A DNA stretch of 64,000 nucleotides from Ktedonobacteraceae bacterium (GTDB taxonomy: Bacteria; Chloroflexota; Ktedonobacteria; Ktedonobacterales; Ktedonobacteraceae), in assembly GCA_035653615.1 (NCBI GenBank), contig DASRBN010000021.1:62001-126000 (forward strand), written 5' to 3'. Below, one piece after another: positions 15,127-20,206 of this stretch (positions are counted from its first letter, which is position 1; the number at the start of each line of letters is the position of its first letter). Both the position numbers and the translations under genes were made by a program. The notes below the pieces were generated by a model. It did not search any database, was not told the origin of the DNA, and saw nothing but the letters and a program-made list of their open reading frames with translations.

Positions 15127-16911
15127 TTAGCGAACCTCCTCTATTGCCTGCAAAATTTCGCCGGCAGTAAATGGAATACCTCCAAATTTATTGACACGGA
15201 TGGGCTGTAAACCATATTTCGCACCCAGCAAATTGGCCAGTTGCCCAGAATAGTTACATTCAGGTACAATTACGGTCTTCACTGAGCTGATAAACTCTCG
15301 TATGGCCCGGTCGGGTAGCGGTGAGAGAATCTTGGGATGCAAAGCCGCTACTTTGTAGCCCCTGGCCCGTGCCCGGTCAACCGCCTCTTGAATCGTGCCC
15401 TCCGTCGAGCCCCAGCCGATGATCCCGATAGTAGCATCCGCGTCACCGTAGCGCTGCGGCTGCGGCAACTCTTCCGCGGCAGTTTCGAGCTTGCGGAACC
15501 TTTTCTGCATCATCGCGGTATGATCTTCCGGCTCGTAGTCGGGGTGCCCATGCTGGTCATGCTCCAGACCGGTTGCGACATAGGTAGGTACGCCATGTCC
15601 GGGCGTTGTGATAGGAGAGATGCCGCTTGTGGTATAGGCGTAGCGGGCATATTCATGCTCTTCCGCCACCACTTCAGCCAGGTCGCCGATATTTGCTGCA
15701 TGACCATTGTGTCCATTGCCGTTTGCCCCATTGGCTTTCACCTGCACGCGCTCAACGATCTCCATTGGCTTGAAGACGCTGCGATCAACGCTTTCCACAC
15801 GCGCTGTCAAGGACTGGTCCGTGAGGAAAATGACGGGCATCTGGTAGCGCTCTGCCATATTAAAGGCCTGTATTATCAGTCGATAGCAGTCCGCAACATC
15901 GGCGGGAGCCACTATCATGCGCGGGGTATCACCGTGGCTTGCGCTAAGGGCGAAGCTCAAATCCGACTGCTCCATCTTCGTCGGCATGCCGGTGCTGGGG
16001 CCTGCGCGCTGGGCGTCGACGACCACGGCCGGTAGCTCAGCCATCGAAGAGAGTCCAATCAACTCGGCCATCAATGAAAGGCCTGGACCAGAGGTTGCAG
16101 TCATGGCGCGTTTTCCGCCGAACGAGGCGCCGAGTACTGATGCCAGGGCTGCCATCTCGTCTTCCGCCTGCAGGAAAGTTCCTCCTACCTGCGGCAATTC
16201 CTTGGCCATTGCTTCCATAATATCGCTGGCCGGCGTGATCGGATATCCGGCAAAGAAAGCGCATTTCGCCGCCAGCGCGCCGGCGACAACTGCCTGGTTC
16301 CCGTTGAGTACCACCTGGTCAGCCTTCTCTACCGCGCCTAAACGGTACGGGTCACGTTTGGTCACATGTTCTTCTACATACTTCTTCGCAATATCCAGGG
16401 CCAGCATATTCTTTTCCATCAAGATGGGATTGGATTTGCGCGACCGCGAGAGCTTGGACTCCACGACCTGGACGATTGCCTCGAGGGGTGGGCCAAATAA
16501 AGCGGAGATGGTGCCAAGCATGACCATATTTTTCGTCTGGAAAAGCTGTACTTCTTTGCGGGCTATCTCATTGAAAGGAACTGCATAGGTGATCAAATTA
16601 TCTGCGTCGGGTGTGAAATCAGAAGGGTCATAGATGAGAACGCCACCGGGACGCAGGTCTTTTCTATTGCGATCATACGCCTCTTCATTCAAACAAATCA
16701 GTACATCGGCATAATCACCCATTGACTTCACGGGTTCGTCACTGATTCGCACCTGAAACAAACAAGGTCCGCCGAGAATTTCGGCAGGGAAGGTGCGGAA
16801 GGTATACACATGATACCCCCAGCGCGCGGAGGCCAACGCGAGGATATCGCCACCGGAAATGGTTCCTTCGCCCGATTCGCCTCCAATTCGGATCGTCACT
16901 TCATTCGCCAT
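15127..16911 (-). CDS. korA: 2-oxoacid:ferredoxin oxidoreductase, fused gamma-alpha subunit
   Basis: A 594-aa fusion. Residues 1-190 are the gamma domain (GGESGEGTISGGDILALA, PAEILGGPC); from about 205 the alpha domain follows with GYPITPASDIMEAMA, QAEDEMAALASVLGASFGGKR and SGPGLSLMAE. A linker near residues 390-465 is rich in Gly, Asn and His (NGANGNGHNGH). The second pyrimidine-binding-like domain carries IGWGSTEGTIQEAVDRA. Together with korB it forms the TPP-dependent oxidoreductase. ATG 16911 follows GGGGGC. Only 2 nt separate the genes. Substrate (2-oxoglutarate versus pyruvate) cannot be fixed from motifs; I use korA by family convention. Confidence 0.94.
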   Translation of the reverse strand: MANEVTIRIGGESGEGTISGGDILALASARWGYHVYTFRTFPAEILGGPCLFQVRISDEPVKSMGDYADVLICLNEEAYDRNRKDLRPGGVLIYDPSDFTPDADNLITYAVPFNEIARKEVQLFQTKNMVMLGTISALFGPPLEAIVQVVESKLSRSRKSNPILMEKNMLALDIAKKYVEEHVTKRDPYRLGAVEKADQVVLNGNQAVVAGALAAKCAFFAGYPITPASDIMEAMAKELPQVGGTFLQAEDEMAALASVLGASFGGKRAMTATSGPGLSLMAELIGLSSMAELPAVVVDAQRAGPSTGMPTKMEQSDLSFALSASHGDTPRMIVAPADVADCYRLIIQAFNMAERYQMPVIFLTDQSLTARVESVDRSVFKPMEIVERVQVKANGANGNGHNGHAANIGDLAEVVAEEHEYARYAYTTSGISPITTPGHGVPTYVATGLEHDQHGHPDYEPEDHTAMMQKRFRKLETAAEELPQPQRYGDADATIGIIGWGSTEGTIQEAVDRARARGYKVAALHPKILSPLPDRAIREFISSVKTVIVPECNYSGQLANLLGAKYGLQPIRVNKFGGIPFTAGEILQAIEEVR

Positions 16912-17195: not shown

Positions 17196-17224
17196 TTCCC
17201 AATTTGCGGTAACTATGCTACAAT
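17196..17224 (+). promoter_or_regulatory. Probable tRNA promoter
   Basis: TTCCCA (17196-17201), a 17-nt spacer and TACAAT (17219-17224) lie so that transcription would begin just before the tRNA 5' end at 17236. The -35 matches 4 of 6 consensus bases. Confidence 0.5.
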
Positions 17225-17235
17225 ACGTTCCACGA

Positions 17236-17860
17236 GGGCCCATAGCTCAGCGGTTAGAGCAGCCGGCTCATAAAAAAGTGCGCCTATGCGCTTTTACGCA
17301 CCATGCCTACAGAGGTAGGCGGCACTGAGGTTAATGTGTCTAAAGCAGGGTCTTACCTGGAAGGGAAACCGGAAAGGGACAATAGCATGACCTGGAAAAG
17401 TCTGGCGAGGTAGCAGTGCCTCTTCAGGCAGCTACGCTGTATATGGTTAAGGCTGAATTGCTTGAATCCCAGTCTGCGCAATGTGGAGTTAGTAAGCGCG
17501 GTTATGAGGCTTATTAAAGACCTCCTCCACTGCGGATAGGACGAATGGGGAACCTACGTACAGACGTGGTGCGTAAGGGAACTTAGGGATCACCTAAATG
17601 TTGAGAGACACATGGTGACGGAGTGCCCATAGTACTCAAACGATCAGGGTAATGTCTGATACACGGGGAAGGGGCACAGGCAACGAAATCGGTTGTTGAG
17701 AAAACGCAAGAGTTTCTCAAAGACAAAGTAGTTGCTGGAGAGCCGTGTGCATTGAAAGGTGCATGCACGGTTCGGGAAGAGATAATTGGAAGCGTACTAA
17801 AGTAACGTGCCCACTATCTCTCTACCTGGTTGGTCGAAGGTTCAAATCCTTCTGGGCCCA
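17236..17860 (+). tRNA. tRNA-Ile2-like (anticodon CAT), interrupted by a group II intron
   Basis: The 5' exon 17236-17273 has acceptor GGGCCCA, TA, D-arm GCTC-AGCGGTTA-GAGC, anticodon stem GCCGG and loop CTCATAA (anticodon CAT). The 3' exon 17826-17860 has stem CTGGT, variable loop TGGTC, T-arm GAAGG-TTCAAAT-CCTTC, acceptor TGGGCCC and discriminator A. Joined, they make a normal 73-nt tRNA with every stem paired; CCA is not encoded. CAT with TTGGTC in the variable region looks like tRNA-Ile2, whose C34 becomes lysidine to read AUA; an elongator Met tRNA cannot be excluded. The intervening 552 nt are a group II intron. A T-run follows at 17861. Confidence 0.88.
17274..17825 (+). mobile_element. 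ORF-less group II intron in the tRNA anticodon loop
   Basis: Canonical 5' start GTGCGCC at 17278; intron 3' end ...CTAC at 17825. Domain V is the 34-nt hairpin 17740-17773 (GAGCCGT... ...ACGGTTC, with a TGAAAG loop). Domain VI pairs 17778-17784 with 17815-17821. A shrunken domain IV hairpin pairs 17696-17703 with 17713-17720; there is no room for a reverse transcriptase. EBS1 TTATGAG (17502-17508) is in an 11-nt loop on a 7-bp stem and is perfectly complementary to CTCATAA (17267-17273). EBS2 GGCTG (17451-17455) matches CAGCC (17260-17264). G17501 before EBS1 can pair with C17826, the first base of the 3' exon. Four A residues (17274-17277) lie between IBS1 and GTGCG. Confidence 0.88.
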
Positions 17861-19768: not shown

Positions 19769-20206
19769 ATGCCTGCTGAAGATACTCCATCTTACGAGCG
19801 ACATCCAGAAGAAAGGACAGGCGAGCCGTATATCTATCACTCTGTAGACCCTACGAATCCCAGTCCAAATCCCGGAGGCCCCAGTCCAATGCCTGGTGGG
19901 CCAAATCCTCTTCCAGAAGCCGTCCATCAGTCTGGCGGAGATGATCCTAGTCCAAATCCTGGCGGGCCCGATCCAGCTCCCGGAGGCCCCGATCCTGTTA
20001 CCGGCGATATGTCTGCCACCCCGGATTATGTGCCTGTAGGCTCAGGCGACAATCCCGGAGGCCCCAGTCCAATGCCTGGTGGACCAAATCCAGTATCGGA
20101 GCCGGGAATTAGCCGGCCTGAGATTCATCACGTTCCTGTTGAAGATCCCAGTCCGAATCCCGGTGGTCCCGATCCTGCACCAGGCGGGCCGAATCCTGTT
20201 GAGTAG
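19769..20206 (+). CDS. Pro/Gly-rich repeat protein (PNPGGP)
   Basis: A 145-aa protein of unknown function made almost entirely of repeated PNPGGP-type units: PSPNPGGPSPMPGGPNP, PSPNPGGPDPAPGGPDP, NPGGPSPMPGGPNP and PSPNPGGPDPAPGGPNP. They are spaced by short acidic stretches with Tyr, His and Asp. It has no cysteine, signal peptide or membrane segment and should be fully disordered. A near-perfect AAAGGAGGT ribosome site 4-6 nt before ATG 19769 argues that it is a real, well-translated gene despite low complexity. The four blocks alternate between a PSPMPGGP and a PDPAPGGP form, as if one pair had been duplicated. Confidence 0.75.
   Translation: MPAEDTPSYERHPEERTGEPYIYHSVDPTNPSPNPGGPSPMPGGPNPLPEAVHQSGGDDPSPNPGGPDPAPGGPDPVTGDMSATPDYVPVGSGDNPGGPSPMPGGPNPVSEPGISRPEIHHVPVEDPSPNPGGPDPAPGGPNPVE

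Follow-up and report, generated by a model that had tools for sequence, protein, structure and literature searches.

Group II introns of bacteria are usually regarded as mobile parasites that keep out of essential genes and depend on a maturase of their own for splicing. The introns of bacterial tRNA genes are given as group I in a review (PMC4033280), and the tRNAscan-SE 2.0 paper ascribes missing Ile2 genes to group I introns (PMC8450103). The one published precedent for a group II intron is TeI4h of Thermosynechococcus elongatus, a group IIB1 intron that lies in the single-copy gene for tRNA-Ile(CAU) and splices with a first nucleotide other than G (5' U) (PMC2882425). In chloroplast trnV and in several plant mitochondrial introns, loss of the branch-point A goes with hydrolysis in the first splicing step (PMC4513849).

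In this study, we analyzed a 64-kb stretch of DNA (the window) from a soil bacterium of the Ktedonobacteraceae (Chloroflexota), in which a tRNA gene is split. We consider it highly likely, from its sequence and that of its relatives, that the only tRNA-Ile2(CAU) gene of the genome, which lies in the window, harbors a domesticated group II intron without an ORF and that the intron is excised to give a working tRNA. The statement in the first-pass annotation that group II introns are very rare in bacterial tRNA genes holds, but with TeI4h there is a precedent in the same tRNA. The open-licence papers on group II introns of Ktedonobacter and Thermogemmatispora contained no report of tRNA introns, which is weak evidence of absence.

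The split tRNA gene and its intron

The two tRNA halves (Table 1), which the first-pass annotation had placed correctly to the base, join to a 73-nt tRNA that ARAGORN folds as a regular cloverleaf with a CAT anticodon. With its intron option, ARAGORN reported the gene as i(39,552); without it, no tRNA was found in the 64-kb window. The intron is inserted after position 38 of the loop and before position 39 of the stem. The 5' exon agrees at every base with the 5' half of an uninterrupted tRNA in a relative (G005), and CCA is not encoded at the end of the 3' exon. Comparison of filled and empty orthologous loci sets the intron limits given in Table 1, and the same loci rule out chance tRNA-like halves. 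The anticodon loop reads C32 U33 C34 A35 U36 A37 A38, and the C4-G69 and C5-G68 pairs are present. A CAU anticodon combined with these two pairs and with A37 A38 is the tRNA-Ile2 pattern accepted by TilS, the enzyme that converts position C34 of tRNA-Ile2 to lysidine-34 and thereby enables the reading of AUA. By this pattern, the split tRNA is a lysidine-dependent tRNA-Ile2(CAU), distinct from the Met tRNAs. The scan that located the probable promoter had an overall yield no higher than chance; in the relatives compared, a TATAAT/TACAAT box precedes the tRNA at a similar distance. Elsewhere in the window, positions 19769-20206 hold an ORF of PGGPxPxPGGP repeats.

Table 1. Features of the split tRNA-Ile2 locus and of embedded tRNA genes in proteobacterial introns (window positions unless a locus is named)
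Feature	Position	Strand	Remarks
2-Oxoacid:ferredoxin oxidoreductase alpha-type gene	15127-16911	-	Syntenic neighbor marking the orthologous locus
Probable promoter of the split tRNA gene	17196-17224	+	TTCCCA, 17-nt spacer, TG before TACAAT; consensus scan
5' exon	17236-17273	+	tRNA-Ile2(CAU) from nt 1 to loop position 38 (..GCCGG CTCATAA); ARAGORN
IBS2	17262-17266	+	GCCGG, 5' strand of anticodon stem; pairs with 17402-17406
IBS1	17267-17273	+	CTCATAA, anticodon loop; 7/7 with EBS1
ORF-less group II intron, 552 nt	17274-17825	+	Filled/empty orthologous loci; ARAGORN i(39,552); RF00029
AAAA 5' extension	17274-17277	+	4 nt ahead of GUGCG; alignment with relatives, fold
GUGCG	17278-17282	+	Canonical group II 5' motif, displaced 4 nt into the intron
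EBS2 candidate	17402-17406	+	CUGGC; pairs with GCCGG, one G.U
EBS1	17502-17508	+	UUAUGAG in a domain I hairpin loop; hairpin kept by compensatory changes
Domain V	17740-17773	+	34 nt; RF00029 match; core invariant among relatives
Domain VI	17774-17823	+	Without branch-point A
3' exon	17826-17860	+	3' strand of anticodon stem, variable loop, T arm, 3' strand of acceptor, discriminator A
Embedded tRNA-Ile2-like gene	L091 5479-5554	-	
Embedded tRNA-Ile2-like gene	L093 3799-3875	-	
Embedded tRNA-Ile2-like gene	L094 3433-3509	+	
Embedded tRNA-Ile2-like gene	L092 1408-1484	-	

The assembly of the window genome (G000) comprises 6.59 Mb in 44 contigs and is 95% complete; its tRNA and reverse transcriptase (RT) counts were taken from profile and pattern searches of the contigs. 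Besides the split gene, 47 tRNAs scored above the Rfam cut-off, and these cover all other specificities once or more. The search for a second intact tRNA-Ile(CAT) gene proposed by the first-pass annotation found none in this assembly, so that a second Ile2 gene was rejected; the three other CAT tRNAs are, by sequence, two initiator Met and one elongator Met. An intact-tRNA pattern applied to CAT, CCT, CCA, and CTT anticodons matched elongator Met, Arg, Lys, and Trp tRNAs and no Ile2. TilS is encoded in the genome (TIGR02432, 171.6 bits against a cut-off of 93.6), and AUA makes up 26 of the 187 isoleucine codons in eight window ORFs. Because no intact Ile2 was found, TilS is present, and AUA is used, the split gene appears to supply the only reader of AUA in the window genome.

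A search of the 64 kb with all Rfam families gave a single family above threshold, RF00029, matched over the full length of the model at 17738-17821 (52.1 bits; gathering score, 40; E value, 2.3e-7). This is the covariance-model check that had been suggested, and it bears out the proposed 34-nt domain V, a catalytic hairpin with the AGC triad and a GAAA-type loop. The intron ends with AC at 17824-17825, which fits the group II AY, and contains no ORF of at least 80 amino acids and no intron-encoded RT/maturase. That the insert is instead a group I intron, as in the tRNA-Ile2 genes of Azoarcus and Burkholderia (PMC8450103), or an archaeal-type bulge-helix-bulge intron is scarcely credible, since the search gave a clear group II domain V and no group I match and since the 552-nt insert has group II boundaries. 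Of 134 consensus pairs derived from 13 aligned introns and their exons, 51 carry two-sided compensatory changes, compared with 6 to 10 pairs when the partners were slid and a mean of 31 (maximum, 40) when they were shuffled; the alifold consensus structure has an energy of -169 kcal/mol. These values point to conservation of a multidomain group II secondary structure. Two further group II introns of the window genome, at C7:166654-166745 (L002, L155) and C30:216865-216961 (L003), have no RT ORF nearby, and ARAGORN placed neither in a tRNA gene. Origin of the tRNA intron from another intron of the same genome was rejected, the similarity to L003 being limited to 55 nt at 84%.

As first noted, EBS1 is fully complementary to the anticodon loop: TTATGAG and CTCATAA form seven of seven Watson-Crick pairs. 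A match of this quality arises by chance in 4% of shuffled introns and is modest if taken alone; however, the complementarity is kept in all 13 intron sequences, and it follows the exon from one tRNA to another (UUAUGAG-CUCAUAA in Ile2, UUUGGAG-CUCCAAA in Trp, and UUAGGAG-CUCUUAA, with one G.U, in Lys). This covariation places the 5' splice site after CTCATAA and not at the GUGCG motif. The EBS2 complementarity to the anticodon stem proposed in the first-pass annotation stands for the window copy, in which CTGGC pairs with GCCGG, but not for all relatives: the pairing is weak or absent in some and is not conserved in G006 and G008. No EBS3 was identified. Specialization of the intron on the anticodon arm, as originally suggested, is consistent with the orthologous locus in other genera and with the matching of EBS1 to the exon.

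Unusual intron ends and the first splicing step

The displacement of GUGCG by AAAA had been missed. The four A residues can pair with UUUU at 17292-17295, extending a hairpin in the predicted fold, and the number of extra 5' nucleotides among the relatives ranges from 0 to 7. GUGCG stands directly at the junction in seven or more relatives, including L090, G019, G006, and Thermogemmatispora; the G003 intron has one extra nucleotide, G002 has AA and a C in place of the first G of the motif, and G008 and G015 have six and seven extra nucleotides, respectively, and a U in place of that G. Splicing at GUGCG itself (17278), leaving the four A residues in the tRNA, would use the canonical 5' end, which directly follows CTCATAA in those seven or more relatives; it is nevertheless very improbable, since it would give an 11-nt anticodon loop, EBS1 pairs exactly with the seven nucleotides that end at 17273, and the joined exons form a perfect tRNA in G002, G008, and G015 although the first base of the motif is changed.

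The first-pass annotation had called a domain VI; it did not mention, however, that the branch-point A of this domain is missing, the window having TATCTCTCTAC where relatives have TATCTACTCTAC. Counted from the 3' end, this A lies at -7; G002, G006, G008, G015, G019, and L090 have it, in the window it is deleted, and the Ile2 and Lys introns of Thermogemmatispora have a G there. Its absence does not disqualify the window intron as group II, since plant group II introns that lack it splice by hydrolysis (PMC4513849). Because the branch-point A is missing and AAAA precedes GUGCG, we lean slightly, by analogy with trnV, toward hydrolysis rather than lariat formation as the first splicing step of the window copy. 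Coupling between the two lesions had been expected; this is contradicted by G002, G008, and G015, which carry a 5' extension and keep the branch-point A, so that the lesions are not coupled. Each is a short indel in sequence of low complexity and might reflect a sequencing error; the intact long ORFs near the split tRNA count against this explanation.

The extended 5' end and the missing branch-point A could also mean decay. If the window copy were decaying and no longer spliced, an intact tRNA-Ile2 gene would be expected in the unassembled part of the genome, and such a copy could be absent from an assembly of this completeness and contig number; furthermore, one relative (G003) has an extra intact copy near its partial intron copy. 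We regard this reading as unlikely, given that every other tRNA specificity is present in the assembly, that the tRNA pairings across the intron are intact in the window copy and conserved among relatives, that EBS1 is fully complementary and domain V canonical, and that the well-assembled relatives other than G003 have a single Ile2 gene each.

Distribution and history of the intron

A locus search of 150 relatives revealed the same arrangement in other genera of the family, and a family-wide search of 29 genomes found one tRNA-Ile2 gene per genome in nearly all of them. Thirteen genomes carry the intron (G000, G002, G006, G008, G012, G015, G018, G019, G022, G025, G027, G028, and, in part, G003), and 13 others have an intron-free Ile2 locus; at most filled and empty loci, the oxidoreductase gene adjoins the tRNA. 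In G008, joining the exons gives a sequence that matches the intact tRNA of G016 and G020 at every position. In a scan of 84,980 species, the intron was also found in Thermogemmatispora tikiterensis, T. carboxidivorans, T. aurantia, Tengunoibacter tsumagoiensis, and uncultured Ktedonobacteraceae. In G003 (L128, L125), an intact tRNA-Ile2 gene lies a few hundred bases upstream of the partial intron-bearing copy, on a contig with N gaps.

On a host tree built from the neighboring gene, a clade supported at 95/97 unites 11 of the 13 bearers, without G006 and G008, and three changes are needed. The G008 intron groups with the window intron (98/98), against the relationship of their hosts. Strictly vertical descent is unsupported by these trees, and because of the G008 conflict they indicate that some transfer or loss of the intron has occurred. 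The 3' half of the G015 intron (L126 versus L127) is nearly identical to that of G019, its domain I is divergent, and it bears the 7-nt 5' extension, which suggests a chimera formed by exchange between introns or during assembly. Contig L090, which bears the name Acidobacteria bacterium 13_1_20CM_3_53_8, shares synteny with the window at 84% DNA identity over the neighboring genes. By these signs it is a Ktedonobacteraceae contig from a misnamed or mixed metagenome-assembled genome, and transfer to Acidobacteria was rejected on that ground. A match in Aenigmatarchaeota (L087) was set aside for want of a group II match.

The same scan of 84,980 species found group II introns at CTCATAA|GUGCGCC in the tRNA-Ile2 genes of Pseudomonas fragi, Massilia, Burkholderia, Cupriavidus, and Psychrobacter (L091, L093, L094, L092, and L095, respectively). 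These resemble the window intron in their insertion site, their GUGCGCC start, and an EBS1 region containing TTATGA. Unlike it, they are full-length elements with an RT-maturase ORF, intact (621 to 625 amino acids) in P. fragi, Massilia, and Psychrobacter (L091, L093, L095), and four of them, in P. fragi, Massilia, Burkholderia, and Cupriavidus, contain an intact CAT tRNA gene of the tRNA-Ile2 type, 439 to 890 nt from the intron start (Table 1); the Cupriavidus contig is duplicated and gapped at this tRNA. Downstream of the P. fragi intron lies the 3' half of the host tRNA. The embedded tRNA looks like a rescue copy brought by the element.

Probable maintenance without a maturase and comparison with known systems

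In six Thermogemmatispora genomes, one of them a single contig (G022), the tRNA-Lys(CUU) and tRNA-Trp(CCA) genes are interrupted as well, by group II introns of 575 to 667 nt that lack an ORF and share the 38/39 position (L149 and L151, tRNA-Lys; L150 and L152, tRNA-Trp). No intact Ile2, Trp, or Lys(CUU) gene was found in the six genomes with the intact-tRNA pattern, for which the window genome gave a positive control, Lys included; the pattern matched nothing at all in the G027 draft, which is weaker evidence. Neither PF08388 (GIIM) nor PF00078 (RVT_1) had a match in any of the six. In ordinary bacteria, tRNA-Trp is the only reader of UGG. Because the only Trp tRNA found is split and UGG has no other reader, the Thermogemmatispora introns must, as judged from these gene inventories, splice, and do so without an RT-type maturase. 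A split tRNA-Trp gene also occurs in G010 (L164), with a 549-nt intron that starts CGAGCGCC and an intact Ile2 gene elsewhere.

A group II maturase may still be needed in the window genome, in which case one of its three RT/maturase proteins (contigs C15, C23, and C44) would act in trans. There are three RVT_1 and three GIIM matches in that genome, and the driver proteins of T. elongatus serve ORF-less introns in trans (PMC2882425). We find such a helper possible but doubtful: the orthologous intron occupies the sole Ile2 gene of six Thermogemmatispora genomes that lack both matches, and domain V of the other introns of the window genome differs from that of the tRNA intron, with almost no blastn similarity.

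In the reading we favor, splicing of the window precursor is predicted from its sequence. The precursor would be transcribed from the tRNA's own promoter, and the tRNA arms, to judge from their conserved pairing, would form around the intron. EBS1 would then pair with the whole anticodon loop, fixing the 5' splice site, as the covariation indicates, and probably masking the anticodon until splicing. Domain V would catalyze excision, with hydrolysis as the probable first step instead of lariat formation, and the joined exons would yield a standard tRNA-Ile2 that reads AUA once TilS has made lysidine-34. The intron family would no longer need its own protein, as is suggested by Thermogemmatispora, with three tRNA introns and no detectable RT/maturase. 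More broadly, group II introns in Ktedonobacteria are probably permanent residents of essential tRNA genes that splice in vivo without an RT/maturase, in part hydrolytically; all UGG and AUA decoding in Thermogemmatispora would then pass through ribozyme splicing, a chloroplast-like state in free-living bacteria.

Here, group II introns appear as stable parts of single-copy tRNA genes over several genera, in one of which no RT/maturase was matched. They offer a bacterial test bed for how such introns become dependent on, or free of, host factors, a transition that has been proposed as leading toward organellar and spliceosomal introns. The split genes also explain why tRNA-Ile2, tRNA-Trp, and tRNA-Lys escape tRNA finders in such genomes. 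The hosts include the named strains Thermogemmatispora carboxidivorans, T. tikiterensis, T. aurantia, and Tengunoibacter tsumagoiensis, so that the matter is open to direct testing.

The group I introns in the tRNA-Ile2 genes of Azoarcus, Acidovorax, and Burkholderia (PMC8450103) share with the window intron the tRNA, the loop, and the problem posed to tRNA finders, but they belong to a different ribozyme class. As in Ktedonobacteria, chloroplast genomes have several essential tRNA genes that contain small group II introns without ORFs, and trnV, where the loss goes with first-step hydrolysis (PMC4513849), has likewise lost its branch-point A. Chloroplast introns, however, use MatK and nuclear-encoded factors; the host of the window intron is a free bacterium, and in Thermogemmatispora no RT/maturase was matched. 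TeI4h, compared here from its published description alone, is likewise a group II intron of a bacterium that occupies the sole tRNA-Ile(CAU) gene, with good EBS/IBS pairing, and its noncanonical first nucleotide is actually used in splicing (PMC2882425); the 5' end of the window intron is also noncanonical. The two differ in that TeI4h codes for an RT/maturase and is one of a mobile family that numbers 28 introns in a single genome, whereas the window intron has no ORF, is found at the orthologous locus in several genera, and is related to introns of tRNA-Trp and tRNA-Lys genes. In conclusion, what is known is the precedent of TeI4h in the same tRNA; what is new is a family-wide, ORF-less intron lineage in up to three tRNA genes, probably maintained without a maturase.
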